Source: Arthrobacter sp. EpRS71
GTDB taxonomy: Bacteria; Actinomycetota; Actinomycetes; Actinomycetales; Micrococcaceae
Assembly: GCF_001512285.1 (NCBI RefSeq)
Contig: NZ_LNUV01000006.1
Span: 1,345,273-1,409,272, forward strand
Direction: 5' to 3'
DNA: 64,000 nt
A program made the position numbers and the translations under genes. Of this stretch, positions 44,726 through 61,454 are shown piece by piece; the first letter of the stretch is position 1, and each line of letters begins with the position of its first letter. The notes under the pieces are model-generated. The model did not search any database, was not told the origin of the DNA, and saw nothing but the letters and a program-made list of their open reading frames with translations.

Positions 44726-45304
44726 ATGCCCGATATTGAGCTTCCCATCATCACCGATCGACTCATCCTGCGGCGCTTCGAGGCCGGGGACCTTGAACGC
44801 TTCCATGGATACCAGTCCCTCCCCGAAACAGCCCGCTTCCTTTTGCGCAACGAGCTGACCAGGACCAAGTCCATGGAGGTCCTGGGCCGGTACGCGAACT
44901 TTGAGTTCAAGCAGGAGGGAGACTGGGTGTGCCTGGCCATTGAGCGCAAGGACCACCCCGGTCTCATGGGCGAGGTAGTGCTGAAATGGCTGGAGGGGAC
45001 CGGGCAGGCTGAGTTGGGCTGGATACTGCATCCGGAGGCGCGTGGTCACGGCTTTGCAACTGAAGCCGCTGAGGCTGTGATGAAACTTGCCTTCGAGAAA
45101 CTGGCCTTCCACCGCATCGACGCCAAACTGGACGCCCTCAACGTCGGGTCTGCAGGCATTTGCAAGCGCCTTGGCATGCGGCTCGAAGCAACCCTGGTGG
45201 ACAACTGGCACTACAAGGGTCAGTGGGCCACCGAGAACATCTACGCCATGTTGGACACGGAGTGGCGCACACGGCACCACCCCTGGACGCGGACCATCAA
45301 GTGA
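44726..45304 (+). CDS. RimJ/RimL-like GNAT acetyltransferase
   Basis: A 192-residue acetyltransferase: ITDRLILRRFEAGDLERF at the start, ELGWILHPEARGHGFATEAAEAVM (acetyl-CoA-binding motif A) and NVGSAGICKRLGMRLEATLVDN. The frame is open upstream to 44021, but this is the shadow of paaI. ATG 44726 has TAGCCT 7 nt upstream. The GAGG adjoining the ATG is too close to be a normal Shine-Dalgarno. Its end overlaps the stop of the convergent GGDEF-EAL gene by 8 bp. Confidence 0.85.
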   Translation: MPDIELPIITDRLILRRFEAGDLERFHGYQSLPETARFLLRNELTRTKSMEVLGRYANFEFKQEGDWVCLAIERKDHPGLMGEVVLKWLEGTGQAELGWILHPEARGHGFATEAAEAVMKLAFEKLAFHRIDAKLDALNVGSAGICKRLGMRLEATLVDNWHYKGQWATENIYAMLDTEWRTRHHPWTRTIK

Positions 45305-46856
45305 CGGGCCAGGTCTTGTGGTGCTTCAGTTGCTCTGTCAGCTGCGCTGCGGGCAGCGGCCGGCTGAAGTAATAGCCTTGGCCGCTGGTGCAACCGATGC
45401 TCAGCAGGTAGTCCGCTTGCTCTGCGCTTTCGATTCCCTCCCAAACTGCAGCCAATCCACAAGCGCGGATCAGCTGCAGGACAGCGGCCAGAAGGGCCGG
45501 CTGTGCGGGGTCGCTGCCCAAGGCGGAAAGCAACGTCCGGTCCACCTTGACCGTGTCCACGGGCAATTGGCGCAGGTAACTGATGGAGGAGTAGCCCGTA
45601 CCGAAGTCGTCAATTTCCAAGCCCACTCCAAGGCGCCTGAGACTGTTGAGCGTGTAGCGGTCCAGGTCATTGCCTTGGATGACAGCGCTCTCGGTCAGCT
45701 CCAGGACCAGGAGCGAAGGATCCAGATCGGCTGACGTCAACGCCTCGCGGACATCTTCAATGAACTCCAGCCGCTGCAGGTCGGCCGCGGAAACGTTAAT
45801 GCGCATGCTGAAGTTGTGACCCGCCGTCAGGGGGTCGCTGCGCCATTGTTTCAACTGCTCGACGGCGGTGCGGAGCACCCAGCCGCCCAGATCGGAGATC
45901 ATCCCCGTTTCCTCGGCGATGGGGATGAACTCGTCCGGCATGACGATCCCACGGGTGGGGTGGTTCCACCGGACCAGGGCTTCCACGCCTTCAATCCCGC
46001 GGGTATCCAGCCTGATGATGGGCTGGTAATAGAGCACCAATTGGGAACCGGCGATTGCCTCTTTGAGTTCCCCCACCAGCTGATTCCGCATTTGCCGTGC
46101 CAGCAGCATGTCAGGCTCAAACACCTTGAGCTTGCCGCGCCCGTCCGCCTTGGACTCGTACATGGCGATGTCCGCTTCCATCATGATCTCTTCCGCCCGT
46201 TGGCCGGGATCGGCCATGCGCAGGCCCATGCTGACCCCGCAGCGAAGGTGTTGGCCCCCAATGTCCATGACTTCCACCACGGAGGCCAGGATTCGGCTGC
46301 CGATGGCGCTGGCCTCCATGGGCGCTACTCCTGGAAGCAGGACAGCGAACTCGTCGCCGCCCATGCGGGCCACCATGTCCTGCTCACGCACCGCGCCGCT
46401 GATACGGGTGGCCACTGTTTCCAGGACTTTGTCACCAATGGTGTGTCCTAAGGAGTCATTGATGGCTTTGAAGCCGTCCATATCCAGGAGGAGGATCGCC
46501 GGCCGTCTATTCCCTTCCACACCGTTCGCTTGGGCTTCGCTCAGGGCGGTGGCGAAAGCTGATCGGTTACTCAGGCCTGTCAGGGAATCGGTCATTGCCA
46601 TGTGCTGCATGGCCAAATGAGCTTCATTGAGCTGTTGTGTACGGGCCTGTACCCTCTGCTCCAGCTCTTCGTAGACGATCTGTAGATCTTCGGCCAGGAG
46701 GTTGGTGCCCATAATCACGGCATCAATCTCATCGCGTGCCTCGGAGACCGGGATCCTCGTGTTCAAGTCGCCCGCAGCCAACCTGACAATCCCCTCAAGG
46801 AGCAGCCCCAGCCGGGGATCGTTCGAGGAAGACGATTCTGCGTCGGACATACTCAC
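45297..46856 (-). CDS. GGDEF-EAL c-di-GMP turnover protein
   Basis: A 519-residue cytoplasmic protein. A HAMP-like or helical segment (about 15-75) leads to GGDEF (about 85-250; RMGGDEFAVLL intact) and EAL (about 260-510; VEALVRWNHP, LELTES, DDFGTGYSS and VKVDR all intact). Both synthesis and breakdown of c-di-GMP are thus possible. No membrane span is visible. The GTG start is in a GTGA overlap with the upstream TPR gene; an ATG at 46850 is the alternative. The coupling implies that the TPR protein controls or senses for this enzyme. Confidence 0.88.
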   Translation of the reverse strand: MSMSDAESSSSNDPRLGLLLEGIVRLAAGDLNTRIPVSEARDEIDAVIMGTNLLAEDLQIVYEELEQRVQARTQQLNEAHLAMQHMAMTDSLTGLSNRSAFATALSEAQANGVEGNRRPAILLLDMDGFKAINDSLGHTIGDKVLETVATRISGAVREQDMVARMGGDEFAVLLPGVAPMEASAIGSRILASVVEVMDIGGQHLRCGVSMGLRMADPGQRAEEIMMEADIAMYESKADGRGKLKVFEPDMLLARQMRNQLVGELKEAIAGSQLVLYYQPIIRLDTRGIEGVEALVRWNHPTRGIVMPDEFIPIAEETGMISDLGGWVLRTAVEQLKQWRSDPLTAGHNFSMRINVSAADLQRLEFIEDVREALTSADLDPSLLVLELTESAVIQGNDLDRYTLNSLRRLGVGLEIDDFGTGYSSISYLRQLPVDTVKVDRTLLSALGSDPAQPALLAAVLQLIRACGLAAVWEGIESAEQADYLLSIGCTSGQGYYFSRPLPAAQLTEQLKHHKTWPVT

Positions 46857-47920
46857 TCCCCGCGTGGCCTGCCCCGGCGCCCGACGTTCTGCCGAAGATG
46901 TTCGCGAACCGCTGCGCTGCGTTCCGGCAACGCCGCCTGGTCGAAAAGTTTTGCGGCTTTTTCGAAGGCACTGAGGCTTTTATCAATTCGTTGGGATGAC
47001 AGCAATGTCCGCCCATAAAGGAAATGCGCCTCGGCGGACGTTTGGGTGGCCAGAATGGAGGAACGGGCGCACAGTGGTTCCAGGATCGCCAAGGCTTCCT
47101 GCATATCACCGGCGAGGTAATTCCAATGGGCGCGGACCAAGGACATTTCCAGGTGATCCCGTTCGGATCCGCCCACAATGTCCGTAGCGAGTTCTGCTCT
47201 CTCAATGCAGCGAAGTGTGGCCGCATCGCCGAGTTTCGCCTGCAGGCGCATTTCGGCTGAGGCGCGGTTGAAGCGTGCCCACAAATCAACGTCCTTTGAC
47301 GGGGAAAGCCGTTCTGCGGCCAGATCGTGATACCGGCTCCCATCCGCTACCCGGTCCGCGAGGAAGGCGACGTTGCCGATCACCCAATACCCCTTGCCCG
47401 CGGTATCTTCATCAACGTCATCGGTAATCAAGGTTTCCAGCACAAGACATTCCCGCCATGCATCGTTCAGCAGACGGCTTTCGGCCAGTGCTGCAATAAG
47501 GGCTCGCTGGGCCAGGACCTGGACGTAGAGGAGTTCAGGGTCCGTAGCGGCGAGTTTTGCCGCGTCGGCCGCCATGGTTGCGGCTTCGGCAAGGCGCCCG
47601 AGTCCTTGGAGCCCAATAGCCACCATTGTTCCTGCCTTGGCGCCGAGCTCGGGGGAGGACGCGGTAAGACGGTGATCATTCAGGGCGATGGCATGTGCCA
47701 GGTATTCTTCGATGCTCCCTTGATCACGGAGGCATTCCGCCTGCAGGTAGCGCATGTTCCACCAGGCGGTTTCATCGCCGGCGTCGCGGGCCAGCCGGGC
47801 CGCTTCGGCAGCCAAACTGAAGGCCTCGTCAAAGTCGCGCGCTTTCCATTTGGCGCGTGCACTGAGTCCGGCAACAAGGTGGGGGGCCAGGTGTGGACTT
47901 TGCATGTGCCCATTATCCAT
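46853..47920 (-). CDS. TPR-repeat protein upstream of a c-di-GMP enzyme
   Basis: A 355-residue all-helical protein with repeated TPR-like pairs: FDEAFSLAAEAARLARDAG, LGRLAEAATMAADAAKLA, YLAGDMQEALAILEPL and IDKSLSAFEKAAKLFDQAA. There is no HTH, signal peptide or catalytic motif. A Rap- or RRNPP-like regulatory role is possible by shape, but no DNA-binding or phosphatase residues are recognisable. It overlaps the GGDEF-EAL gene by GTGA and is divergent from the 56-residue peptide gene. The promoter overlaps an inverted repeat. Confidence 0.75.
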   Translation of the reverse strand: MDNGHMQSPHLAPHLVAGLSARAKWKARDFDEAFSLAAEAARLARDAGDETAWWNMRYLQAECLRDQGSIEEYLAHAIALNDHRLTASSPELGAKAGTMVAIGLQGLGRLAEAATMAADAAKLAATDPELLYVQVLAQRALIAALAESRLLNDAWRECLVLETLITDDVDEDTAGKGYWVIGNVAFLADRVADGSRYHDLAAERLSPSKDVDLWARFNRASAEMRLQAKLGDAATLRCIERAELATDIVGGSERDHLEMSLVRAHWNYLAGDMQEALAILEPLCARSSILATQTSAEAHFLYGRTLLSSQRIDKSLSAFEKAAKLFDQAALPERSAAVREHLRQNVGRRGRPRGE

Positions 47921-47940
47921 GTCATTGCGGAAGAAAAGCT

Positions 47941-47974
47941 CGTATAGTTTGCCCCGTGACTTTATTCAAGTCAC
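47941..47974. promoter_or_regulatory. Divergent promoter region with inverted repeat
   Basis: GTGACTTTATTCAAGTCAC (47956-47974) is a perfect 7-bp inverted repeat with 5-nt spacer. It overlaps the -35 of the TPR gene: on the minus strand TTGAAT (47969-47964), 17-nt spacer, TATACG (47946-47941). The promoter of the peptide gene is less clear. Confidence 0.55.
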
Positions 47975-48012
47975 AGTCATCAAATTCGCATCAGTACGAA
48001 AGGGCATAGCGG

Positions 48013-48183
48013 ATGAAAAAATTTGCGGCAACCCTGCTCATGGCGGCGGTTCTGGCAGTAACAGGATTCGCTGCTCCGGCCAATGCCGAGCCTACGCAGG
48101 ACAGCACGGCAATCGGCTGGTGGCCGAACAGCACCACCACGGGTAAGACGAACACCACCAGCATCGGTTGGTGGCCGAACTAA
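48013..48183 (+). CDS. Small secreted peptide precursor with two IGWWPN repeats
   Basis: A 56-residue open frame read directly from the sequence. It starts MKKFAATLLMAAVLAV, a signal peptide ending in PANA (cleavage after residue 25). The mature part is 31 residues and contains T-A-IGWWPN at 33-39 and T-S-IGWWPN as the last residues, joined by a Ser/Thr/Gly/Lys linker. AAAGGG lies 8 nt before the ATG and a perfect terminator follows, so the gene is a complete unit. No family is known to me. Phr-like or double-Trp pheromones are the nearest idea, given the divergent TPR gene; a small surface or antimicrobial peptide is the alternative. Confidence 0.8.
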   Translation: MKKFAATLLMAAVLAVTGFAAPANAEPTQDSTAIGWWPNSTTTGKTNTTSIGWWPN

Positions 48184-48222
48184 ATATTGGGGGAGCGCCT
48201 CTCGAGGCCATATGAGCTAAAT

Positions 48223-48262
48223 TGATGCCCCGGGCCCTAGCCCGGGGCATCAGTTTTGTTTC
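48223..48262 (+). terminator. Terminator of the small peptide gene
   Basis: A perfect 13-bp stem, TGATGCCCCGGGC paired around CCTA, followed by GTTTTGTTT. Confidence 0.92.
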
Positions 48263-48396: not shown

Positions 48397-50040
48397 CTAC
48401 GGCCCGCCCACCGGTAACTCCACCGACACCGTGGTTCCGGACCCCAAGATGGAGTCGAAGACCATGCGGCCCATGTGGCGGCTGATGATGTCGTTGGCGA
48501 TTGCAAGGCCCAGCCCGCTGCCGGGCACGGCTGCTGAGGTGGCGTTGGAGGCGCGGTAGAACCGGGTCAGGATGTGCGGGAGATCGTGCTCCGGTATACC
48601 CAGGCCGTTGTCTGCGATCCGGACGAGAGCTGAAGGTCCGCCGTCGTCTGAGGCCGACAATGCGCTGGTGATGCCAACGCGGCCACCCTCGGGAGTGAAC
48701 TTGATGGCGTTGGCCACGATGTTCGTGAACACCTGTTCCAGCTTTGCTTCGTCCGCGGTAACCTCAATGTCCTCAGTGGCCTCGGTGAAGGACACGGAAA
48801 CGTGGCGGGACTCTGCCTGCGGCCGGAGCGTTGCCACCACCACTTGGAGGAGTTTGTCGATATCAACCGGTTTGAGGTCCAGGTTGCTGCCGTCCTGCAT
48901 GGAGACCGTGAGCATGTCCTCAATGAGCCTGCGCAGGCGGTCCGAGTTCCGGGCGATGACTTCCAACATTTTTCTGATGCCGTCGGGAACAGGTCCCCCG
49001 GAACCGTCCTGGATCATGTCCAGGTAAGCGGTAATGGAGGTCAACGGCGTCCGCAGCTCATGGTTTACGGTGGCCAGGAAGTCTGTCTTGGCCTTGTCTA
49101 GTTGTCTCAGTTGGTGCAGGACCCGCTGTTGGGCGCTGATGAGGTGGCCTTGGATGAGTCCGTGGGCTACGTTTCCGGCTACGTGCTGCATCAAGGCGAT
49201 CTCCGGACGGGTCCAGTCGTGCCGTTCCTGCACAGTGGACAGGAGGATGATTCCCATGGCGGAAGCGCCTTCGCCTACCGGGAGCAGCACGGTGGATACA
49301 GCATTGAGCTCGCAGGACCATTCCCTCAGTGCCTTGGCGATCTGTGAGTCCGGGTCTTCCCGGTGGTCTGCCACGGCGAGGACGTCAGCGTCGGCCCACA
49401 GCCTGTTGGCGGTCTCAGAAATGGTGTTCTCGCTTTCGCCTAACCTGGCGGGCAGCAGCGGAAGGCCGGGACGGTTCCATTGAGCACGGATGCTGGGGAC
49501 CCGTTCATCGCGGAACGTAGCGAACCACACATGGTCCACGCCCAAGGCAACGCCAAAGCCTTGGACCACGTGCTCTGCGATCAGTTGCGGATCATTGGTC
49601 CGACGGATTTTCGATGAGACGTTTCGGAGGCTTTCCCGCAGCGCTTCGATCTCGCTCCGGGAGCGCGCACGTTCACGTGCACGTCCGATCAGGGTTTGAA
49701 CCCGGTGGACGAGTTCTCCGGGACGGGCCGGGATGATGACGTAGTCCGCTACGCGCCAGGACTCCACTTCTTCCAGGTCCACGGACTCCTGCTCATCCAG
49801 CAGCAGCAGCACAGGAACTCCGGGGCTGCCCAGGCCGTGGGCGAGGGCGTTCTCGGCAACCACCACTGAGGGGTGTCGTTGCTCAATCTGGGAGGTCATG
49901 GAGGCGGTGTCCGTAGCAGGAAATACCTGGAAGCCCGCGGCTTCAAGAGCGGATGTAGTGGCCGCCAAACGGTCATGGTCTGAGTCCGCCACGACAGCCG
50001 AATGCGAGGCATGCTGCTCCCCGGCAACGGTCTGGTCCAC
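48397..50040 (-). CDS. Sensor histidine kinase with degenerate receiver and GAF-like domains
   Basis: A 547-residue soluble kinase. Residues 15-120 follow a receiver fold (VVADSDHDRLAATTSALEAAG), but the usual phospho-acceptor Asp position reads VVVAENALA, so it is probably not phosphorylated. Residues 145-300 look like a GAF domain. The kinase core is intact: H-box FLATVNHELRTPLTS, N-box IVANAIKF, G1 IADNGLGIP and G2 GSGLGLAIAN. No response regulator is adjacent. GTG is the start, with GGAAGG upstream. It is divergent from the STAS-like gene. Confidence 0.87.
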   Translation of the reverse strand: MDQTVAGEQHASHSAVVADSDHDRLAATTSALEAAGFQVFPATDTASMTSQIEQRHPSVVVAENALAHGLGSPGVPVLLLLDEQESVDLEEVESWRVADYVIIPARPGELVHRVQTLIGRARERARSRSEIEALRESLRNVSSKIRRTNDPQLIAEHVVQGFGVALGVDHVWFATFRDERVPSIRAQWNRPGLPLLPARLGESENTISETANRLWADADVLAVADHREDPDSQIAKALREWSCELNAVSTVLLPVGEGASAMGIILLSTVQERHDWTRPEIALMQHVAGNVAHGLIQGHLISAQQRVLHQLRQLDKAKTDFLATVNHELRTPLTSITAYLDMIQDGSGGPVPDGIRKMLEVIARNSDRLRRLIEDMLTVSMQDGSNLDLKPVDIDKLLQVVVATLRPQAESRHVSVSFTEATEDIEVTADEAKLEQVFTNIVANAIKFTPEGGRVGITSALSASDDGGPSALVRIADNGLGIPEHDLPHILTRFYRASNATSAAVPGSGLGLAIANDIISRHMGRMVFDSILGSGTTVSVELPVGGP

Positions 50041-50257
50041 TGAGCCCCTTCCGTTCCAATGTTCGTCCGCAGTGATTGAGGATTTGGCAACACCCTATCA
50101 GCGGCGTTGGGGCCAGCGGACGCCCATGTCGAAATGGGCTTTCTAAGTCGTGGGTCACACCTTTACATTGGCTCATGGATTCGACAGCCTTGAGGGAGTG
50201 AGCGCGGGGATCCATCCTGGTTTTTCCTGCAGCTGTCTTGATTGCGCGAGGAGAATT

Positions 50258-50641
50258 GTGGACCACCCAGCTACACCGCAAGACCACCAAGAGGTGACTT
50301 TCGAGTTGGAACTCGAGGAGCCCGGGATCCTGCGCCTGACGTGGCCGCGTGGTGCCCGGATACAAGAACCGGATGCGCAGAGGGCCATGGACAAAGTCAA
50401 CGAACTCTGCGGAACGGACCGGCACCCCATGATTGTTGATATGGCCACCACGGACGATGTCACCAGGGGAGCCCGGTCAGTCTTTGCCAAACCCTGTCAG
50501 GCTTCCCGGATCGCCCTTTGGGGCTCGTCCCCGGTGGATAGGGTCATTGCCAATTTCTTCCTGGGGATCATGAAGCCGCCATGCCCTACCAAGTTCTTTA
50601 CCTCCGAAACAGAAGCGCTGGAGTGGTTGGTGGAGGTGTAG
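50258..50641 (+). CDS. STAS/SpoIIAA-like small protein
   Basis: A 127-residue soluble protein. The C-terminal part, MIVDMATTDDVTRGARSVF then RIALWGSSPVDRVIANFF and KFFTSETEALEWL, has the alternating strand-helix pattern of STAS/SpoIIAA-like (DUF7793-type) proteins. GTG 50258 has GAGGAGA just upstream; a longer frame from 50150 has no ribosome-binding site. It is divergent from the sensor kinase. A role in partner switching or signalling is possible but unproven. Confidence 0.68.
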   Translation: MDHPATPQDHQEVTFELELEEPGILRLTWPRGARIQEPDAQRAMDKVNELCGTDRHPMIVDMATTDDVTRGARSVFAKPCQASRIALWGSSPVDRVIANFFLGIMKPPCPTKFFTSETEALEWLVEV

Positions 50642-51561: not shown

Positions 51562-53781
51562 CTACTTGAGGCCGGCGCCAGGGAGCAGTTCCGTGGCACC
51601 GAGGGAATCAGCGATGAACGCGTAATCCCAGGCCCGCTCGCGCCACTGCACGTACCGGCCGGATGCACCGCCATGGCCGCCATCCATTTCGATCTTCATG
51701 ACGATCGGCTCGGAACCTGTGGACGCGGAGCGCAGCGCCTGGACCCATTTGGCCGGCTCAACATAAAGCACTCTGGTGTCATTGAACGACGTCACTGCAG
51801 CGATCTTGGGGTAGGGCGCAGCTTTCACATTCTCGTACGGAGTGTACGACTTCATGTAGGCGTAGGCCTCCGGGTCGGTGATGGGGTTGCCCCACTCTTC
51901 CCATTCCAAGGCGGACAGCGGAAGTTCGGGATCCAGGATGGTGGTCAGAGCATCCACGAACGGCACCTCGGCCACCACGGCAGCGTACTTTTCCGGGGCC
52001 ATGTTTGCCACCGCGCCCATGAGCAGGCCACCAGCGGATCCACCCATGGCAGCTATCCGTGAAGGATCCACCCATCCGGACCCTGCCAGCCAATCCGTGG
52101 CTGCAATGAAGTCCGTGAAAGTGTTCTTCTTGGTGAACTTCTTGCCGTCCTCGTACCAAGTGCGTCCAAGTTCACCGCCGCCGCGGATGTGGGCGATCAC
52201 CATGACGATCCCGCGGTCCAGGAGGGACAAACGGGCCACGCCGAAGCCCGGATCCATGCTCATTTCGTAGGAACCGTAACCGTAAACCAGTCCGGCGCCA
52301 GTGCCGTCCTGCGGGACCGAAGCGTGACGCAGCACGGACAACGGCACCTTTGTGCCGTCGTCGGCCGTTGCCCATTCGCGGGTGGCGACGTAATCCGTTG
52401 CCGAGTAGCCGCCCAAAACCGGGCTTTCCTTGCGAAGCAGCAACTCGCCCCGGGGCTGGTCTGATGTTGGCAGGACGAAGTCGTAGACGCGTGAAGGCGT
52501 AAAGTACGAGGTGTAACCCACGCGGATCACCGGGGCTTCATAATCAGAGCCGGAGACGCCTGCAGTGTAGAGCTCCTCATCGAAGGCCGGCTCCACGGGC
52601 ACCCCTTGAGCGGCTGTGCCCAAACCTTTCAGCGGGAGTACCTGCACGCGCTCAATGGTGTCCTTGCGGACGGACAACACCAGATGCGTGGACGTTACGC
52701 CCGCGCCGTTGACGCGAACATCCCGGGAATGCTCGACGACGGTGCGCCAGTCCTGCTCGGCGAGCGGCTTGGTGAGCTCGGCCGGGTCCACCAGGCTCAC
52801 CATCGAGTTGATGGCGTCCTTGTTGTGGGTGAGGAGCAGCGTTTCCTTGCCCTCGAGGAGGAAGGGCTCGGCCTCGTAGAGGACGTGATGGTCGCGGGAA
52901 ATCACGGTGCTGAGTCCGGCGTCGTAGGCGTCGAACCGGAGCAGCCGCGTTTCACTGAACTCGGAGCAGCCGATGCTCAGCACAAGGTGGCGGCGGTCGG
53001 ACGAGAGGTCGAAGCCGAGCCACATGGCGACGTCGTCCTCCTGATAGATCACTTCATCCTCAGCCACAGGTGTGCCCAGAAGGTGGGATTTCACCTGATA
53101 GGGCCGCCATGAATCGTCCACCACCGTGTAGAAAAGCCTGCTGCCGTCAGGGGAGAAAGCCACTCCGTAGAAGATGTCCTCAATGACGTCCGGGAGCAGC
53201 TCCCCGGTTCGCAGATCCTTGATCCGCAACGTGAAGCGTTCGTCTCCGGAGTTGTCCACCGCGTAGGCGTAAAGGTTGCCGTCGACGGTCACGGCGGCAC
53301 CGCCGACGCTGAAGAACGGCTGGCCCTCTGCCTCGATATTGCCGTCCAGTAGTACCTCCTCGCCGGGAAGCGCGACGCCTGCGTCAACTGCCGGGGGAGT
53401 CCAGTCCGCCACCGGATCGCCGGTGTTGTTGGCCAGGACGCGGCACTGGATGCTGTACTCCTTGCCCTCCACCGAACGGCTGTAGTACCACCAGCCATCC
53501 TTGCGGCTGGGTACGGAGAGATCCGTTTCCTGGGTCCGGCCCTTGATCTCCTGGAACATGGCCTCGCGCAGTGGCTCCTGATGCGCCGTGATGGCCTCCT
53601 GGTAGGCATTCTCGGCCTTGAGATGCTCAACAACCTCGGAGGATTCCTTGTCCCTGAGCCACTCATAGTTGTCCACGAAGACATCGCCGTGGTGTTCGCG
53701 GCGGGAGGGGATCTGCTTGGCGACAGGAGGCTGGAGAGTAGGTTCCTTGGCAGCGGCAGGCGCGGAAGAAGTGTGGCTCAT
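51562..53781 (-). CDS. Oligopeptidase B (S9 family prolyl oligopeptidase)
   Basis: A 739-residue cytoplasmic serine peptidase that cuts short peptides after basic residues. An N-terminal beta-propeller (about 70-430) covers a C-terminal alpha/beta-hydrolase domain with AAMGGSAGGLLMGAV (Ser about 560), FNDTRVLYVEPAKWV (Asp) and MDGGHGGASGR (His). Acidic residues in VPFVDALTTILDPELPL are typical of oligopeptidase B rather than prolyl oligopeptidase. TAGAGT lies 6 nt before the ATG, indicating a leaderless message. Confidence 0.92.
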   Translation of the reverse strand: MSHTSSAPAAAKEPTLQPPVAKQIPSRREHHGDVFVDNYEWLRDKESSEVVEHLKAENAYQEAITAHQEPLREAMFQEIKGRTQETDLSVPSRKDGWWYYSRSVEGKEYSIQCRVLANNTGDPVADWTPPAVDAGVALPGEEVLLDGNIEAEGQPFFSVGGAAVTVDGNLYAYAVDNSGDERFTLRIKDLRTGELLPDVIEDIFYGVAFSPDGSRLFYTVVDDSWRPYQVKSHLLGTPVAEDEVIYQEDDVAMWLGFDLSSDRRHLVLSIGCSEFSETRLLRFDAYDAGLSTVISRDHHVLYEAEPFLLEGKETLLLTHNKDAINSMVSLVDPAELTKPLAEQDWRTVVEHSRDVRVNGAGVTSTHLVLSVRKDTIERVQVLPLKGLGTAAQGVPVEPAFDEELYTAGVSGSDYEAPVIRVGYTSYFTPSRVYDFVLPTSDQPRGELLLRKESPVLGGYSATDYVATREWATADDGTKVPLSVLRHASVPQDGTGAGLVYGYGSYEMSMDPGFGVARLSLLDRGIVMVIAHIRGGGELGRTWYEDGKKFTKKNTFTDFIAATDWLAGSGWVDPSRIAAMGGSAGGLLMGAVANMAPEKYAAVVAEVPFVDALTTILDPELPLSALEWEEWGNPITDPEAYAYMKSYTPYENVKAAPYPKIAAVTSFNDTRVLYVEPAKWVQALRSASTGSEPIVMKIEMDGGHGGASGRYVQWRERAWDYAFIADSLGATELLPGAGLK

Positions 53782-53974: not shown

Positions 53975-54781
53975 ATGGTTCCTCTTCACGCGCATAGTGT
54001 TCAGACCCTCAGGAGGGGTCGACTCAAGGTAAAACGACACCCCGTCTCTTTGCGTCGCTCCCCTGTAGACCTCGAAGTCATCATCCCTGCCTACAACGAG
54101 GCAGGGAGGATCTCCAGCACACTGACGCAAACGGTGGATTTCCTGGCCGTCCAGCCATGGTCTTCGCGCATTGTGGTGGTGGACAACGGCAGTGTGGATG
54201 ACACCGCTGCGGTTGTGCGCCGCATATCCCGGGAAGCCCGGGAAAGCGGAGATGCAGTGCCGATCTCGCTGGTGGGATGTTCCCGTCGCGGGAAAGGGGC
54301 GGCGGTCCGCCGCGGCCTCCTGAGCGGCACGTCCAGATACACGGGATTCTTCGACGCCGACCTAGCCACGCCGCTGGAAACGCTCACTGAAACCATGGCT
54401 CATCTCGCAGACGGGGCGGCGGCGGTCATCGCCTCCCGCCATGCGCCGGGTTCAACCTTTGTTGTGCCCCAGCATCTTGGGCGCAGGATGGGTGGTACGG
54501 CCTTCCGGGTTCTGACCAGGTCCAAGGTCAAGGGCATCCAAGACACCCAATGCGGCTTCAAGTTCTTTGAGCGGGACGCGCTCACCGCTGCCATGGTGCA
54601 GTGCCGCAGCACCGGGTTCGCGTTCGATGTGGAGCTGCTCCTTCGGCTTCAGGACAACGGCGCCAGCATTGTGGAACTGCCCGTGGCATGGACCGATGGC
54701 GCCGAGTCCACGTTCCGTCCCTTCCAGGACGGGGTGGCCAGTTTCGCCTCGGTCATTCAGCTTCAGAAGGCGGCGTCATGA
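53975..54781 (+). CDS. Family 2 glycosyltransferase (dolichyl-phosphate-glucose synthase-like)
   Basis: A 268-residue GT2 enzyme. Residues 34-45 are LEVIIPAYNEAG; IVVVDNGSVDDTAAVV and FFDADLATPLET hold the acidic metal-binding residues. The segment DTQCGFKFFERDAL is typical of polyprenyl-phosphate glucose synthases. The C-terminus lacks membrane spans. ATG 53975 has GGAG 7 nt upstream. It is coupled to the next glycosyltransferase (ATGA) and opens the polysaccharide cluster. Confidence 0.84.
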   Translation: MVPLHAHSVQTLRRGRLKVKRHPVSLRRSPVDLEVIIPAYNEAGRISSTLTQTVDFLAVQPWSSRIVVVDNGSVDDTAAVVRRISREARESGDAVPISLVGCSRRGKGAAVRRGLLSGTSRYTGFFDADLATPLETLTETMAHLADGAAAVIASRHAPGSTFVVPQHLGRRMGGTAFRVLTRSKVKGIQDTQCGFKFFERDALTAAMVQCRSTGFAFDVELLLRLQDNGASIVELPVAWTDGAESTFRPFQDGVASFASVIQLQKAAS

Positions 54782-56256
54782 CCGACGCCTTAACTGACCT
54801 GAATTCCCCCAGCAGGCTCGCTGGAAAACACGTACTGGTTCTCAACTGGCGCGACGTCAGGCACTCCCAAGCTGGCGGCGCTGAGCAGTACATGCATGAA
54901 ATTTCACGCAGATGGGTGAACAGCGGAGTCCGCGTCACATGGTTTACAGGCCGCGACGCCGGTCAGGCGGCCGAGGAGATTATTGACGGCATTCGCATAC
55001 TGCGCGGTGGCGGAGCACTCTCCATCTATGGCCATGCAGCGCTCCGGCTCCTACGCACCAACGGTCGCTTCGATGCTGTGGTGGATTGCCAAAACGGAAT
55101 CCCGTTCTTCTCGCCGTTGTTCCTGCGAGGGGATATCCCCATCGTCCAACTGGTCCACCACGTTCACCAAGATCAGTTCCGTACCCGGTTCTCCCCGCCC
55201 ATGGCCGCAGTGGGCCGCTTCCTCGAAAGCAGCGGTGCCAAGACCGTCTATGGGCACCGTGCCATGGTGGCGGTCTCGCCTTCCACACGTATGGAACTGC
55301 GGGAGCTGGGATTCTCGGCCCCCATCCATGTGGTGCCGAACGGCACCATCGACATTCCGCCGGATGTTGCCACCCGGGCCGCAGAGCCCACCATCGCCGT
55401 GGTGAGCCGCCTGGTGCCCCACAAACGATTGGACCTGCTGCTGGGACAGTTTGCTGTGGCGGCGCGGAAGTTACCGCATCTGCGCATGGACATCGTCGGT
55501 GACGGGCCTGAACGGGCACGGCTGCAGCAACTGGCAATGGACCTTGGCCTGGACCACGCCGTCACTTTCCACGGATATCAGCCCAACCAAGAACGCGATG
55601 CTCTGTTGAGCCGCGCCTGGATGACAGCTTCCACATCGGCTTCAGAAGGCTGGGGTTGCTCGGTGATTGAAGCAGCAGCCTGGGGAGTTCCATGTTTGGC
55701 TTTGCGGGTCCCGGGTATCAGGGATTCCGTGGTGGACGGCCGCACCGGATGGCTGGTGGACAACCCCACGGACTTGGGCAACGCCATGGTTGATGCCATC
55801 ACCGAGTTGGCTGCGCCGGAGGCCGCCATCATTGTCTCCGGCGAGTGCCGTGAATGGGCCCGCTGCTTTAACTGGGACCGCAGCACCAGGCTGCTCACCG
55901 GTGTGCTGTTGGAAGAAACCCTGATGCGCAGGGACGGGGGTGACCCCCGAGCCTGTCATTCGGATCTATCCACTGTGGTTCAGTTCGATTTATCTGCCCA
56001 GTTCGACGTGCCCGGTGACGTCGGATCCCGTGACGCCGCGTTCACGGCCGCTCTGAAGCCAACGGATGAATATGCAGTGGTAGATGACCGCGTGTCCATC
56101 ATCATGAAGGGCCGCGATGAGTTCGAGGCCTTTGCAGCGATGAAAATGATCGGAGTGTCTTCCCCGGAAGTTCACTCGGCAGGCCGCAGCACCTTACTTG
56201 CCGGGCCCGGAAGCGTCTTCGCGCCGGCGGATGCCTTCGATGGTCTGCAACGGTAG
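54778..56256 (+). CDS. Family 4 glycosyltransferase with C-terminal extension
   Basis: A 492-residue GT4 enzyme with a GT-B fold. The N-terminal domain has HSQAGGAEQYMHEISRRW, and the C-terminal domain has VSRLVPHKRLDLLL, MDIVGDGPERARL and STSASEGWGCSVIEAAAWG, with the donor-binding Glu. About 110 further residues (from 380) follow the catalytic domains and match no motif I know. The frame is open upstream to 54601 inside the GT2 gene, but the ATGA overlap at 54778 is the natural start. Confidence 0.85.
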   Translation: MTDALTDLNSPSRLAGKHVLVLNWRDVRHSQAGGAEQYMHEISRRWVNSGVRVTWFTGRDAGQAAEEIIDGIRILRGGGALSIYGHAALRLLRTNGRFDAVVDCQNGIPFFSPLFLRGDIPIVQLVHHVHQDQFRTRFSPPMAAVGRFLESSGAKTVYGHRAMVAVSPSTRMELRELGFSAPIHVVPNGTIDIPPDVATRAAEPTIAVVSRLVPHKRLDLLLGQFAVAARKLPHLRMDIVGDGPERARLQQLAMDLGLDHAVTFHGYQPNQERDALLSRAWMTASTSASEGWGCSVIEAAAWGVPCLALRVPGIRDSVVDGRTGWLVDNPTDLGNAMVDAITELAAPEAAIIVSGECREWARCFNWDRSTRLLTGVLLEETLMRRDGGDPRACHSDLSTVVQFDLSAQFDVPGDVGSRDAAFTAALKPTDEYAVVDDRVSIIMKGRDEFEAFAAMKMIGVSSPEVHSAGRSTLLAGPGSVFAPADAFDGLQR

Positions 56257-56263
56257 CTGATCG

Positions 56264-57793
56264 GTGGTTATATCCGAACAAGCAATGACCATACGAACAA
56301 GCCTGAGGCCCAGAGCCGATGGCAGGAAAGGGGCGCCGGATCAAGACGCAAAAATAGCCCAAAACAGCGGCTTCCTGGCTGTGTCGGCCGGGCTGGTGGG
56401 GGTGGTGAGCTATGTGTGCTCCCTGCTCATGGCCAACCTGCTGGGCACAGCGGATTACACACAATTTGCGGCCGCCGCCATGATCCTGGGCGTGGTGGGA
56501 ATCGTGGCCAACGCACTGGTCCCACTTCCTCTCTCACATATTGTGGCTGTCCACAGGAAAGGGTCCGAAGAGCGGCAGGACGGCATGGCCTTCTCGGTCT
56601 TCGTCTCCTGCCTGGCGGGGTTTGCGGCCGCCACGATCACCGGCAGCGTGACGCTGGCCATCGCGACGCCGGACCTGGCCGCAGCCGTAGCTCTCGCCGC
56701 CTTTGTCATTTTCGTTGTGAATGCGCCCGCTGGATGGCTCCAGGGTGAGCTGCGTTTCACCTGGTACGCCATGTCCACCATCGGCGAGGTTGTGCTCCGG
56801 TTGATCTTCAGCCTGCTGGTCATTGCGATGGCCTGGAATGCAGGCGGAGCCATCCTCGGTTTTGTGGTGGGGTGCCTGGCGCCGCTAGTGGTGCCGTGGC
56901 AGTTCTATCGGGATCTCCGCTGGCGTCCCCATGTTTTGCTGCAGAGGTGGCGTTGGGCCGAAACCACTGACATCGCGTCGGTTTTGTGTGTGGTGTCCGT
57001 GCTGGTGGGCCTTGACGTCATGGTGGTTGGCTTCCTGGATAGCGGCTCTGTGGACGCCGCGGGATTCCAGGCGCTCGCAACAATCGCCAAGGGTCCCGTC
57101 TATGTGGCAGCGGGTACGGCCTTGGTGGCTTTTCCGCTCCTGCGAACCCCGGGCGCGAAAGTTGGGGAGGTGCTGGGTGCTTCCTTTGCTTCTTTCGGGC
57201 AGCTGGTGGTGGTGGCCTTCGCTATTATCGCTACCGCCCCGCCCCTGATGTCCGGGCTCATAATTCCGCAGAAATACCACGGCTCCCTTGGCCTTCTGCC
57301 ATGGCTGGCGGCTTCCGGCCTGGGCTATGCAGTCCTGATGGTACTCACCACTGTCCTCCTTGCTGTACGCGCCTACCGCCGCTGCCAAATCGGGCTCGCC
57401 TGTGCGTGCCTCTTGGTGATTGGCGGGCTGTGGATCGGCTGGCAACTGAACGCCGTCACAGGAATGGCCGTGGGCTCGGCTGTTGGCGCTGTCACTGCCT
57501 GTGCAGTCCTGACCGTCCTGGCGCGCCCGGCCCTCGAGGCTGCCCGCCCCGGACGGGGCGCCGGCGCGTTCCTCGTCCTGGCAATCGTCCTGATGGTGGT
57601 CCTCGCAGTCGCCGCGCAGTTGCAGCCCCTGCTCTGGTTTGCTATTGCCGCCATCAGCGGCATCACCGTGCTTGCCCACCAGCGCGGAATGTTGCCGCAC
57701 AGGAACGACTTCAAAATGGTCCGACGGCGGCAGGTTGGCAGACGCAGTAAAGCTACAGGCCGCCGACAGCGAAGGGCAGCCCATCTACGTTGA
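56264..57793 (+). CDS. Polysaccharide flippase-like membrane protein (Wzx/MVF fold)
   Basis: A 509-residue protein with about 12-14 hydrophobic spans and a basic C-terminal tail. It has an exporter-type start, NSGFLAVSAGLVGVVSYVCS, and a substrate channel typical of oligosaccharide flippases of the MOP superfamily. It probably moves a lipid-linked repeat unit across the membrane. GTG 56264 is the first start; ATG 56285 is equally possible. It overlaps the open frame of the next glycosyltransferase. Confidence 0.8.
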   Translation: MVISEQAMTIRTSLRPRADGRKGAPDQDAKIAQNSGFLAVSAGLVGVVSYVCSLLMANLLGTADYTQFAAAAMILGVVGIVANALVPLPLSHIVAVHRKGSEERQDGMAFSVFVSCLAGFAAATITGSVTLAIATPDLAAAVALAAFVIFVVNAPAGWLQGELRFTWYAMSTIGEVVLRLIFSLLVIAMAWNAGGAILGFVVGCLAPLVVPWQFYRDLRWRPHVLLQRWRWAETTDIASVLCVVSVLVGLDVMVVGFLDSGSVDAAGFQALATIAKGPVYVAAGTALVAFPLLRTPGAKVGEVLGASFASFGQLVVVAFAIIATAPPLMSGLIIPQKYHGSLGLLPWLAASGLGYAVLMVLTTVLLAVRAYRRCQIGLACACLLVIGGLWIGWQLNAVTGMAVGSAVGAVTACAVLTVLARPALEAARPGRGAGAFLVLAIVLMVVLAVAAQLQPLLWFAIAAISGITVLAHQRGMLPHRNDFKMVRRRQVGRRSKATGRRQRRAAHLR

Positions 57794-57887
57794 CATGAGC
57801 TGTCCCGCTGATCTTGATGTGGCGGCCGCCGAGCCGCAGAGTGCCCTCCGGAGAGCACTCGTGGAAACCGTAAGAAGAAAGACAGTA

Positions 57888-59030
57888 ATGAGAGTTTTGC
57901 ATTTGGGTTTTGAAGATCCCCGCATGCCCGGGGCAGGCGGCGGATCTGTGAGGACGCACGAAATCAACCGCCGCTTGGCGGCAACAGGCTTTGACATCAC
58001 GGTGCTGACGACGCGTTACCCGGGGTGGCAGGAACGCGTGGAGGACGGCGTCCACTACGTTCCGATCGGTTGGGGGCAGGGCGGCAATCGTCTGACACGG
58101 TTGTTGGCCTACATTGCACGGCTGCCGTTCGAGGTACGTCGTCGCGGGTCGGCAGATTTGGTGGTGGAAGATTTTTTCGCCCCGTTTTCCACCATGGCCG
58201 CACCACTCTGGACCAATCGCCCCACTATTGGAGTGGTGCAATGGCTACATGCCCGGGACAAGGCACGGCAATACAAATTACCCCTCCATTGGTTGGAACG
58301 CTGGGGCGTCCGGAAACATCGCAGGCTCATTTCTGTTTCCCAAGGGATCAGCGATCGTTTGATGGAGCTGAACCCGGCTCTTCATGTGGACGTGATCGGG
58401 AACGGTGTGGATCCGGGCATATGGGAAACCGAACCCCATGCCGGAAAAGATGTTCTCTTTGTAGGGCGTCTGGAGTACGGGCACAAGGGCTTGGACCTGC
58501 TGTTGGGAGCATGGGCTGAATGTTGCAACCGGGTAGACGGCAATTTGTTGATCGCCGGTACGGGCCAGGACGAAGACAGGCTGCGCGCGACCATCCAGGG
58601 CGCGGGCCTTTCCGGGCGTGTCAAAATGCTCGGATGGCTTTCGGGGGAGCAGAAACATAAGGCTATCGCCGACGCCCGCCTTTTGGTGGTGCCCTCGCGG
58701 CATGAGACGTTCGGTTTGGTAGCCATTGACGCAATGGCAGCGGGCACTCCTGTCATCGCCTTTGATATTCCCTGCCTTCGGGAGATAGTCCCTGAGGGAA
58801 CAGGATGGCTCGTGGAGGCCTTCGACGTCCAGGCGCTGGCAGTCGAAATAGCCCTTCGTTACGCGCAAGAGGGTCTGGGCGATGTTGCTGAGCATGGACG
58901 GAAGTTCGCTGCCCTTTACAACTGGGATGTGCTCGCAGGCATGCAGGCAGAGGCTTACAACACGGCACTCGCAGAACTGGAGAACCCCAAGACCGGGCGG
59001 CAGAGGGCCGCCCTCCCTGAAAGGGCTTGA
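57888..59030 (+). CDS. Family 4 glycosyltransferase
   Basis: A 380-residue GT-B enzyme starting MRVLHLGFEDPRMPGAGGGS, then ISVSQGISDRL, VLFVGRLEYGHKGLDLLL, LLIAGTGQDEDRLR and VVPSRHETFGLVAIDAMAAG (donor-binding Glu). ATG 57888 matches how family members begin; GTG 57861, ATG 57795 and TTG 57735 are in frame upstream and would add up to 51 residues. Ribosome binding is weak at all of them. Confidence 0.82.
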   Translation: MRVLHLGFEDPRMPGAGGGSVRTHEINRRLAATGFDITVLTTRYPGWQERVEDGVHYVPIGWGQGGNRLTRLLAYIARLPFEVRRRGSADLVVEDFFAPFSTMAAPLWTNRPTIGVVQWLHARDKARQYKLPLHWLERWGVRKHRRLISVSQGISDRLMELNPALHVDVIGNGVDPGIWETEPHAGKDVLFVGRLEYGHKGLDLLLGAWAECCNRVDGNLLIAGTGQDEDRLRATIQGAGLSGRVKMLGWLSGEQKHKAIADARLLVVPSRHETFGLVAIDAMAAGTPVIAFDIPCLREIVPEGTGWLVEAFDVQALAVEIALRYAQEGLGDVAEHGRKFAALYNWDVLAGMQAEAYNTALAELENPKTGRQRAALPERA

Positions 59031-59031
59031 A

Positions 59032-59844
59032 ATGCAACCCCCATCAAGAGTTGAAAAGTCCATGGCGGGCGACGCGCCATGGTTGTTCCTGTCGCCCCAT
59101 CTCGACGATGCAGTTCTGTCCTGCGGTGCGCTTATTGAAGCACAGGCACAAGGCCGTGAAATCATCGTGGCCACGCTTTTTACTGAAGCGACGCCGGGTG
59201 CCTCTACACCGGCTGCTGCCACGCGTGCCGCCCGTTCATTCATGCGTCAATGCACCATTCCTGACGCGGGTGAGCTCTTCGCCGCCAGGCGCGCGGAGGA
59301 CCGTGCCGTGCTTCATGAGATGGGTGTTCAATCTATCCATTTGGGTGAAGTGGACGCGCTGTTCCGGCGCCGACGAAAGCCCGCGATGCTGGGCAGCAGC
59401 GCGTGGGACAGGCTTCTTCCGGAGCTCACGCACCGCTACCCCACCTATCGGTTGGACATCGCCATGGGGCGGATCTCCAGGGGTGACCAAGGGCTGATCC
59501 GTCAGCTCCGGAGTGCCGTTGCCCAACTGATGGCTCACACCAAAGCGGAACTCCTCTTTTGCCCGGCGGGAGTGGGCAAACATGTGGACCACCTCATCGC
59601 CCGGGAGGTAGGCAAGAGCCATCTTGGAAACCTGGTGATGTACTCGGACTTTCCCTACGACCTCGTGGTGGGGCCGGATGAACAGCACATGTCCAAGATC
59701 GGATTTGTTCCCTGGACGTGGAACTCCGGAATAGAGGGGAAAACCCGGCGCATCAGGCAGTACGCTTCCCAAGCTGATGCCCTGTTTCCCGGGGGTGAGA
59801 TTCCTCTGAAGCCGGAAACCTTCTTTATCCCCGGAAACCTATGA
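59032..59844 (+). CDS. PIG-L family deacetylase
   Basis: A 270-residue LmbE/PIG-L metal-dependent deacetylase. The zinc motif is LSPHLDDAVLSCGA (about 20-33), and a distal His is in GVGKHVDHLIAREVG. It may remove N-acetyl groups from a sugar of the polysaccharide or its lipid precursor. ATG 59032 has GAAAGGG 6 nt upstream, and the stop overlaps the GT39 gene (ATGA). Confidence 0.87.
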   Translation: MQPPSRVEKSMAGDAPWLFLSPHLDDAVLSCGALIEAQAQGREIIVATLFTEATPGASTPAAATRAARSFMRQCTIPDAGELFAARRAEDRAVLHEMGVQSIHLGEVDALFRRRRKPAMLGSSAWDRLLPELTHRYPTYRLDIAMGRISRGDQGLIRQLRSAVAQLMAHTKAELLFCPAGVGKHVDHLIAREVGKSHLGNLVMYSDFPYDLVVGPDEQHMSKIGFVPWTWNSGIEGKTRRIRQYASQADALFPGGEIPLKPETFFIPGNL

Positions 59845-61454
59845 ATCGGCACGCTTTGACGCTTGAAATAAGGGGCAGTATGAAATCGCTTGAGGCATCT
59901 GCATCGGAAGTTCGGGGGCGGAGGTCTGCACGCGCCCGGCGGAAGCCGCTGCGGAATCACGGGTGGGTTGTCCTTGGAGTCGGGCTGCTGGCTTTGGTGT
60001 TCCGGGTGTTCGGTGTTCAACGGGCCAACGACGTCTTTATTGACGAAGTAACTTATGCGGACATTGCACGGCAAATAGCGGACGGACAAATGCCGTCGAT
60101 TTTGGGCACTCCGTTTTTCCTTCATCCTCCTGGCTCGTATGCCCTGAATGGCTTGGTTATCCGCGTGCTGGGCCTTGGGGGACATTCCACGGATCTGGCG
60201 TTGCAGCTGCGCTGGGTTAATGGTGTCCTCGGGGCAGTTACGGTAGTTATTTGCTTCCTGTTGGTTCGTCGACTGGCTGGTCTTGGACCTGCGGTGTGGG
60301 CCGGAGTCATGTTGGCGAGCGATCCATTTGTCCTCCGCATGGATGGGCGCCTGATGATGGAAACGCCGGCCGGACTGGCTGTACTGTCCGGGTGGCTCCT
60401 GGTCCTGTTGGTGCTTGAACGCAACGGGCGCAGGTCACGCCTGTGGCTGGAGATTGGCGCAGGATTGGTCTTCGGCCTGGCTATTGTCATAAAGGATATG
60501 ACCGCCGTTTTCACCGTTGTCCCGCTGCTGACGGCCGTGGTCTGGCGGAGAACAATTCCCCCGAAAATGGCGCTGCGCATCCTTGTTTGCTCCTTGGTGC
60601 CATACCTCATCTATTTGGGCCTGATTGTTGCCAGCGGCCTGCTCCCGGAGTTTCTCGGTCAAAAATCGGTGGGCGTCCTACGGATGGTTGGCGCGGTGCA
60701 GATGACCGGCTTCAACTCAGTTCACAGCGTGAGCCTCACTGACCGGCTCATTGATTTGGCAGGCCGGTTTGGGACCAGCTACGTCCTCCTCGGGTTTTCC
60801 ATCGTGGCCGGAGCCATAGTCGCCATGTCTCCGGTGGTGAAACGGAGGGTCGTTGGTTTGTTCTCGGTGTTTACCGGATTAGTTGGTATCTATTCCGTCT
60901 TTTTCGGGGCGGCCGAGGAACAGTTTGGGTACTGCGTGGTTCTGGCCGCGCTGGCTTCAACGCCGGTAGCCGCTGTCATGCTGGTGAACTGGCGGCCGCG
61001 CCTTCGCGGGGCGGTGGTCACGGTGGCTGCAATCATGGCTATCCTCAGTCTGTTCCTAGGCAGTCAGGCAAGATCAGTGGTGGATGATGGCCTCGTCCGT
61101 GCACGGGATTTTATGGTGGCCGAACTGCCCTCTTCCTCGAAGGTGGGGTTGACCTCCGTCACCGGTGAGTTTGCGCTAATGCCCCATGAAGGGTGGGAAG
61201 TTCTCCCGTCGCTGCAGTCCCTCAGGGACGGGGGCGCCGAGTACGTCCTGACGCAGGGCAGGCCGTTGAGTGAGGGCTATGGCTTCGCTTCCCCTGAGTT
61301 CCTGGTCTGGCTGCAGGAAAATGCGCGGCCGGTCTTCACGTTCACTGGACCAACGTCAGGGGACACCGTTGTGTGGAAGCTGGACCGTGAAAAGTTGGAA
61401 GCCGCGGTTACTGGCGGGCTGATACTGCCCCCTGTGACGGGTGGCTACAAGTGA
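59841..61454 (+). CDS. GT39-type membrane glycosyltransferase
   Basis: A 537-residue polytopic protein with about 10-11 spans. The extracellular acidic motif VFIDEVTYADIARQIADG (about 59-76) and the following FLHPPGSYALNG resemble the PMT/ArnT family, which uses polyprenyl-phosphate sugars as donors. The GT2 enzyme at the start of the cluster could supply that donor. Start ATG 59841 overlaps the deacetylase; ATG 59880 is an alternative. The stop overlaps the lipoprotein gene. Confidence 0.8.
   Translation: MNRHALTLEIRGSMKSLEASASEVRGRRSARARRKPLRNHGWVVLGVGLLALVFRVFGVQRANDVFIDEVTYADIARQIADGQMPSILGTPFFLHPPGSYALNGLVIRVLGLGGHSTDLALQLRWVNGVLGAVTVVICFLLVRRLAGLGPAVWAGVMLASDPFVLRMDGRLMMETPAGLAVLSGWLLVLLVLERNGRRSRLWLEIGAGLVFGLAIVIKDMTAVFTVVPLLTAVVWRRTIPPKMALRILVCSLVPYLIYLGLIVASGLLPEFLGQKSVGVLRMVGAVQMTGFNSVHSVSLTDRLIDLAGRFGTSYVLLGFSIVAGAIVAMSPVVKRRVVGLFSVFTGLVGIYSVFFGAAEEQFGYCVVLAALASTPVAAVMLVNWRPRLRGAVVTVAAIMAILSLFLGSQARSVVDDGLVRARDFMVAELPSSSKVGLTSVTGEFALMPHEGWEVLPSLQSLRDGGAEYVLTQGRPLSEGYGFASPEFLVWLQENARPVFTFTGPTSGDTVVWKLDREKLEAAVTGGLILPPVTGGYK

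Follow-up and report, generated by a model that had tools for sequence, protein, structure and literature searches.

A 64,000-nucleotide stretch of the genome of Arthrobacter sp. EpRS71 (NCBI RefSeq assembly GCF_001512285.1, contig NZ_LNUV01000006.1, forward-strand positions 1,345,273 to 1,409,272), hereafter the window, contains a compact candidate signalling locus in which the gene for a small, apparently secreted peptide faces the gene for a tetratricopeptide repeat (TPR) protein, which in turn overlaps a gene for a GGDEF-EAL enzyme of cyclic di-GMP (c-di-GMP). An earlier note on this DNA had claimed a complete 56-codon gene for an exported peptide with two IGWWPN repeats, and such a gene is indeed present, with a Sec-type signal (Table 1). 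The layout that it described was recovered as well. The peptide and TPR open reading frames (ORFs) are divergent and 92 nt apart, a perfect inverted repeat lies between them, and the TPR stop codon TGA (46855-46853) shares two bases with the GTG start of the GGDEF-EAL gene (46856-46854). This GTGA overlap makes translational coupling of the TPR and GGDEF-EAL genes probable.

Features of the locus

The precursor carries a K-K n-region, a hydrophobic core and the motif APANA, and its orthologs pass the crude rule that was used, together with the sequence itself, to call Sec signals throughout. To measure selection, we reduced 46 loci (some represented twice) to 30 distinct gene sequences, 25 of which are of standard length and gap-free. 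The ratio of nonsynonymous to synonymous polymorphism (pN/pS) is 0 in both IGWWPN copies, where only synonymous change is seen, and 0.008 in the signal, against 0.40 and 0.44 in the linkers. This pattern indicates a translated precursor whose leader and two short cores are under constraint. A chance ORF or an RNA feature was set aside, because codon-level selection speaks against it. Family libraries give the peptide no name: NCBIfam returned WGxxGxxG alone, at 22.1 bits and under the cut-off of 35, and PADLOC had no match at E ≤ 0.01 for either the peptide or the TPR protein.

The peptide, TPR, GGDEF-EAL and histidine kinase genes are co-located in 30 of 30 close orthologous loci. The outer arms of the palindrome are kept in all 30, with inner bases variant in L028, L032 and L033. 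Judging by promoter consensus, the palindrome would begin at about +1 of the peptide gene, and the −35 element of the TPR operon would sit inside it. The promoter scan found one site for the peptide gene, against a mean of 0.5 (SD 0.7) in shuffled sequences. When the genome was scanned with the relaxed palindrome GTGAC-N9-GTCAC, nine sites were found against five for a control pattern, the full core occurring only at this locus, and the scan defines no regulon. The terminator-like inverted repeat behind the peptide gene has arms of 17 nt each that are 94% complementary. In some species, a second DUF7793-type copy lies between the TPR and GGDEF-EAL genes. Farther along the window are a gene for a prolyl oligopeptidase of family S9 (51565-53781, minus strand) and polysaccharide genes (54601-61451, plus strand) encoding a group 1 glycosyltransferase, Polysacc_synt and PMT_2.

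Table 1. Features of the peptide–TPR locus and its neighbours, in window coordinates
Feature	Coordinates	Strand	Basis
Putative secreted pheromone-precursor ORF, 56 codons plus stop	48013..48183	+	ORF list; retained in 30/30 orthologous loci
Sec-type signal, codons 1-25 (MKKFAATLLMAAVLAVTGFAAPANA)	48013..48087	+	Sequence and crude rule; likely cleavage after ANA
IGWWPN copy 1, codons 34-39, putative pheromone core	48112..48129	+	0 amino-acid changes in 25 distinct gap-free sequences
IGWWPN copy 2, codons 51-56, C-terminal, putative pheromone core	48163..48180	+	0 amino-acid changes in 25 distinct gap-free sequences
Terminator-like stem 3' of peptide gene, T-rich tail	48219..48256	+	17-pair stem; stem retained in alignment
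Palindrome GTGACTT-N5-AAGTCAC between the divergent genes, putative operator	47956..47974	.	Perfect inverted repeat
Promoter-like site of peptide gene, ATGTCA-18-TATAGT (sigma-70-like)	47919..47948	+	Scan; within conserved block
Promoter-like site of TPR operon, TTGAAT-17-TATACG	47941..47969	-	Read by eye; absent from promoter-scan output
TPR solenoid protein without helix-turn-helix, 355 aa, putative cytoplasmic pheromone receptor	46853..47920	-	AlphaFold2; paralog of XRE-TPR regulator
GGDEF-EAL protein, putative output	45297..46856	-	Pfam GGDEF 7.8e-41, EAL 6.6e-71
GAF-HisKA-HATPase histidine kinase, neighbour conserved in one arrangement	48397..50040	-	Pfam
DUF7793 / SpoIIAA-like protein, conserved neighbour	50150..50641	+	Pfam DUF7793 2.3e-19

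Pairing and co-descent of the peptide and TPR genes

A profile of the TPR protein recovered 80 named loci with TPR identities between 94% and about 40%. Almost all belong to Arthrobacter, Paenarthrobacter, Pseudarthrobacter and Sinomonas, and strains of Paenarthrobacter aurescens and Arthrobacter globiformis are among them. For the pairing count, L093 and L126 were dropped because their upstream sequence falls short of 700 nt, and a fixed script searched the remaining 78 for a divergent Sec-signal ORF bearing an x-W-P-[NDHGKY] core (xWP). Such a peptide lies beside the TPR gene in 72 of the 78 loci by script and in 76 once four cases seen by eye are added: in L070 and L071 the peptide ends in IGWWP, in L100 the precursor is farther upstream and in L088 it lies just downstream of the TPR gene. 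Away from these positions, the loci contain 841 Sec-like short ORFs, of which 19 have the core. A relative with the TPR gene thus almost always has a Sec-signal Trp-Pro peptide next to it, whereas the earlier note would have taken absence or frameshift of the peptide gene as a refutation. Synteny merely inherited by close relatives was set aside, since the pairing reaches about 40% TPR identity and spans two gene orders. The peptide and a same-strand GGDEF-EAL gene are also present in 20 of 20 additional regions from the genus, at least nine of which are on contigs already counted. These samples overlap, and counts from the 78-locus set, the 20-region set and an 18-region set from other genera (see below) are not additive. 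Several regions picked from other genera and several of a set of 20 peptide loci likewise share contigs with the loci of the TPR profile.

Copies of WWP peptides were also seen where no TPR gene lies in the fetched 10 kb (L034, L035, L037, L040, L051, L046, L048 and L052), possibly as orphan signals. What we take to be transposase-like ORFs lie near the copy in L037. L046, L048 and L052 have a kinase resembling that of the window and, by eye, an ORF resembling an S9 prolyl oligopeptidase.

Across relatives, the precursor holds one to eight copies of its core, which differs by lineage: IGWWPN, TGWWPN, VNWWPN, MEWWPN, VEYWPN, YYWPD, KVGNWPD, KIGDWPN, IDDWPH, AVGIWPN, GIWPY and others. The L089 precursor, of 121 aa, has up to six TGWWPN copies. 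In other genera of the family, eight VG(D/N)WPH copies face an HTH-TPR gene, that is, one encoding a helix-turn-helix (HTH) domain before the repeats (L188 6106-6408, plus strand), and precursors with five VGNWPD copies (L177 3852-4232, minus strand) and seven VGNWP(D/A) copies (L182 6109-6540, plus strand) were also observed.

The earlier note had suggested looking for co-variation of the motif and the TPR protein. We mapped the motif onto a TPR tree of 100 rows, 98 of them labelled (L093, L103, L126 and L136 were dropped; L116/L185 and L132/L179 are pairs from the same contig). On this tree, 11 changes are counted for the residue before WP, against 28-33 in 200 shuffles (mean 31.3), and 23 for the residue after WP, against 35-45. 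The motif thus follows the receptor tree, which shows co-descent, not contact. Covariation with the residue before WP did not point to contact, since the receptor positions concerned are not concentrated in the presumed groove (see below). The top covarying column is Met224 in helix A6: all 65 receptors that face a WWP peptide have Met there, and those facing NWP or IWP peptides usually have Leu or Val. It may be a candidate specificity residue, unless relatedness explains the pattern.

TPR fold and helix-turn-helix relatives

The 355-residue protein matches no TPR model in Pfam at E ≤ 1e-3 and nothing in NCBIfam at E ≤ 0.01. Yet the TPR label given in the earlier note is borne out by an AlphaFold2 model built from 59 sequences (mean predicted local distance difference test score, 93.5), whose helices read as eight TPR pairs plus a capping helix, and by a paralog that matches TPR_12 (see below). 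The best structural matches in the PDB are to eukaryotic LGN, with Z up to 28.3, other eukaryotic and designed TPR proteins scoring about 21-23. The peptide sensors of the RRNPP family (named for Rap, Rgg, NprR, PlcR and PrgX) follow, with NprR at Z 20.6 (root-mean-square deviation [rmsd] of 5.6 over 310 aligned residues), RapI at Z 20.6 (rmsd of 6.0 over 320) and then further Raps. These matches to RRNPP sensors are consistent with a receptor role and are not decisive, because TPR solenoids match one another widely. When a TPR profile of the window clade was run against PDB chains, no RRNPP chain was among the matches at E ≤ 0.1.

The most conserved helices are A5 (mean entropy, 0.49), B6 (0.60) and A6 (0.67), class A helices averaging 1.28 against 1.73 for class B, and Asn183 in A5 and Asn218 in A6 are invariant in the 59 sequences. 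In Raps, according to the excerpted text of one structural study (PMC3601957), the peptide lies on the concave side, with mainly A helices contributing, and a family Asn (Asn227 in RapF) holds its backbone.

The genome of the window holds one other match to the TPR profile, a paralog of 424 aa (G000:C6:1230848-1232119) that combines an XRE-type HTH_31 domain (6.9e-12) with TPR_12 (9.9e-10); a match to RNPP_C is weak, at E 0.16. This paralog (L136 5349-6620, minus strand) faces a divergent Sec-signal precursor with two IGNWPDPM copies (6733-6972, plus strand). The pair resembles a full RRNPP-type transcriptional system and may outrank the window locus in importance. The arrangement recurs: among HTH-TPR loci found across the family, the 30 with the best scores (24 of the same genus, six of genus g7) all have a facing precursor, in which GNWPDPM or GNWPDPA is present one to six times. 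Among 18 usable regions that were hand-picked from other genera to cover both receptor types, a facing xWP peptide is found in 12. When 16 HTH-TPR proteins were combined in a profile, it matched PlcR at 2.6e-9 (profile positions 4-199, chain positions 5-198), in an alignment that covers the HTH plus some of the TPRs, and ComR at 4.6e-5 in the HTH region. In an AlphaFold2 model of one HTH-TPR protein (L118), the HTH is of low confidence, probably because few alignment rows carry it, and the TPR part matches NprR at Z 21.3 and LGN at Z 27.0.

The TPR family is widespread in the genus, where 197 of 198 genomes have a member at E ≤ 1e-10. Proteins related to the HTH-TPR regulator, whether or not they carry the HTH, were found in 144 of the 295 genomes searched in the taxonomic family, spread over 17 of its 32 genera. 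The search of the order gave 23 of 347 genomes at E ≤ 1e-25, three of these from outside the family, and that of the phylum gave nine of 396. There are weak hints beyond the family. A precursor with three GGSWPT copies (L211 2689-2862, plus strand) faces a distant HTH-TPR gene (28% identity) in another family of Micrococcales. A more distant family of the phylum has, in three genomes, very small Sec-like ORFs that face HTH-TPR genes and end in YPWPK (L227 2715-2801, plus strand), FPWPK (L228 1305-1424, minus strand) and FPWGGT (L229 1292-1381, minus strand); with three loci, this may be chance. A wider reach in the phylum is opposed by L213, L224 and L225, which have no such facing ORF, and by L226, whose ORF is on the same strand. 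We set aside a phage or plasmid origin: no phage record matches the HTH-TPR protein, and the 21 plasmid records that do, 17 of them from Streptomyces, all match at less than 60% identity. In the two of these 21 records that were inspected (Dermacoccus L252 and Streptomyces L253), the script filter found no facing Trp-Pro peptide.

Interpretation and comparison with known systems

We consider it quite probable that the window locus is an RRNPP-type peptide-pheromone system in Actinomycetota, with an HTH-less receptor like Rap and with c-di-GMP as its output. The proposal of the earlier note that the peptide is a signal read by the TPR protein draws support from the pairing, from the motif that follows the receptor tree and from the HTH-TPR paralog with a precursor of its own, to which are added the gene overlap, the selection on the motif and the linkage to GGDEF-EAL genes; all of these are read from sequence. 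The linkage likewise favours the c-di-GMP connection made in that note. For HTH-less TPR genes, a GGDEF-EAL gene is found no more than 5 kb away in 69 of 76 loci; for HTH-TPR genes, in none of four. It is on the same strand as the TPR gene, downstream of it in 37 loci and upstream in 32. The HTH-less state is therefore associated with a neighbouring c-di-GMP enzyme, and this link holds in both gene orders. Since the catalytic motifs of the window enzyme are kept (RxxD-N5-GGDEF, EAL, DDFGTG and EGIE), both cyclase and phosphodiesterase activity are possible. A HAMP match at its N terminus (8.9e-5) is sub-threshold.

The peptide could also be a true signal for the TPR protein with GGDEF-EAL a mere frequent neighbour, the target of the TPR protein being something else, such as a response regulator, the nearby kinase or the DUF7793 protein. 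Seven of the 76 HTH-less loci do lack a GGDEF-EAL gene within 5 kb (three of them, L103, L115 and L126, at or near contig ends), DUF7793 genes are common in the vicinity, and 35 of the 76 loci have a histidine kinase gene close by. However, the kinase is absent from all 32 loci with the upstream order, which shows that it is not a constant part of the system, whereas GGDEF-EAL persists in both orders and, in the window, its overlap with the TPR gene suggests translational coupling. We therefore regard another target as unlikely.

That the peptide acts outside the cell, as an envelope peptide, toxin or matrix factor, with the TPR and GGDEF-EAL genes merely co-regulated through the palindrome, we judge improbable. 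It would fit the predicted secretion of the precursor, the conservation of the divergent promoter region with its palindrome and the eight peptide copies lacking a TPR gene in the fetched stretch. However, the fixed part of the peptide is a short motif that tracks the receptor tree, co-regulation leaves unexplained why HTH-TPR paralogs face related repeat precursors, and the flanking TPR and kinase genes have no family match hinting at modification or immunity. Hardly credible is a short ORF that goes untranslated and is conserved as a regulatory or antisense RNA: its 5' leader is strongly conserved at the DNA level, but the motifs show synonymous and no amino-acid change, and linkers and repeat numbers differ while the frame stays intact.

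Several observations weigh against a pheromone system. Our support comes from sequence and structure models, and adjacency could reflect shared regulation without binding. No facing xWP peptide is found in six of the 18 regions from other genera, nor, by script and inspection, in two Sinomonas HTH-TPR loci (L127 and L130). Among 20 peptide loci, which were hand-picked from the match list and are not random, there are eight in which no TPR gene could be recognised within the sequence fetched; the genomes of these eight each carry at least two TPR relatives. The residue two before WP barely tracks the tree (12 changes, against 13-16 when shuffled), and receptor positions covarying with the motif are not enriched in the groove helices, the mean normalised mutual information being 0.237 for A helices, 0.265 for B helices and 0.275 for loops. 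Finally, eukaryotic TPR proteins outscore RRNPP receptors in the structure comparison, and in the profile search designed TPR and pentatricopeptide repeat (PPR) proteins outscore PlcR via repeated weak stretches.

In the pheromone system as we picture it, the export signal is read from the sequence, and the steps that follow are drawn from the resemblance to RRNPP systems and from gene linkage; from these we infer export itself, maturation, import, binding and control of the enzyme. The 56-aa precursor would be exported by Sec, with signal peptidase removing about 25 residues, and extracellular proteolysis would free short peptides around IGWWPN, two per precursor. An oligopeptide permease would take the peptide back in, a step made plausible by the 13 SBP_bac_5 peptide-binding proteins in the genome. 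Inside, the peptide may bind the concave groove of the HTH-less TPR protein at the central helices A5 and A6, with their invariant Asn183 and Asn218. Binding would alter the action of the TPR protein on its GGDEF-EAL partner, and c-di-GMP would shift, either up or down, with cell density or self-exposure, akin to the action of Rap on partner proteins.

We lean slightly towards a wider view, in which these genes form an old RRNPP-type branch of Actinomycetota's own with a shared Trp-Pro core: the HTH-TPR regulator with its GNWPDPM-type precursors would control genes directly in Arthrobacter and its relatives, and the HTH-less branch would have put the same pheromone chemistry to use in density control of c-di-GMP. 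According to the excerpt of PMC10075063, it is in Bacillota that peptides have been described as quorum signals for cytoplasmic TPR receptors, and the signals of actinobacteria are typically small molecules. Should the pheromone reading of the locus be right, a peptide language that is unnamed in family libraries is in use in a common soil genus. Receptor, ligand and output would be encoded side by side, with many natural ligand-receptor variants for specificity swaps, and an imported peptide acting on a c-di-GMP enzyme would make the link from self-sensing to surface or biofilm life directly testable in soil strains.

How does the locus compare with known systems? The criteria of an RRNPP detector, as they appear in the excerpt of PMC10075063, are a small propeptide, a Sec signal, a receptor of 250-500 aa, TPRs and gene adjacency. 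At 56 aa, the precursor falls within the propeptide range of 10-100 aa (some relatives, such as that of L089, are longer), its Sec-dependent export signal is called from sequence and the crude rule, the receptor has 355 aa, its TPRs rest on the structure model and the genes are adjacent, if divergent. On these five counts, and with the modelled repeats accepted, the peptide-TPR pair qualifies. Like the RRNPP or RRNPPA systems of Bacillota (Rap, Rgg, NprR, PlcR, PrgX and AimR), it places a small Sec precursor beside a TPR protein of 250-500 aa, and the Arthrobacter paralog adds the XRE HTH and the profile match to PlcR. Unlike them, it belongs to a different phylum and has a divergent gene order, a Trp-Pro core and an HTH-less branch tied to GGDEF-EAL.

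Rap-Phr of Bacillus is close in that an HTH-less TPR receptor is expected to act on a partner protein and the precursor repeats short pheromones; some Phr precursors carry tandem pheromones, with up to eight copies reported (PMC11343458). The complex of Rap with CSF (4gyo) matches the window TPR model at Z 19.7. However, the model has no N-terminal three-helix bundle: its first confident helix (13-26) already reads as helix A of TPR1, and the alignment with RapI starts at RapI residue 47. Because this bundle is missing, we do not class the window receptor as a Rap. The partner would also be a c-di-GMP enzyme instead of a response regulator, the precursor gene is divergent, and no response regulator gene was seen in the window operon, where the overlapping gene encodes GGDEF-EAL.

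In ComR-ComS and Rgg-SHP, a short peptide with two Trp residues is read by a TPR protein, and an HTH is present in both ComR and Rgg. The window shares with them a short Trp-Trp peptide encoded next to a TPR protein. The differences are that Trp-Trp occurs here in part of the family, the wider core being x-W-P, and that the window receptor is HTH-less.

Earlier RRNPP surveys covered Firmicutes and viruses (PMC10075063) and Firmicutes (PMC9765709), as far as the excerpts of both show. The earlier note knew of no such system in Arthrobacter, and we likewise found no description of one in Arthrobacter or Actinomycetota among the matches listed in the open-access literature, going by titles and the starts of abstracts. 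As far as literature searches go, what is new about the locus is its phylum, its Trp-Pro core, its divergent gene order and its link to c-di-GMP.

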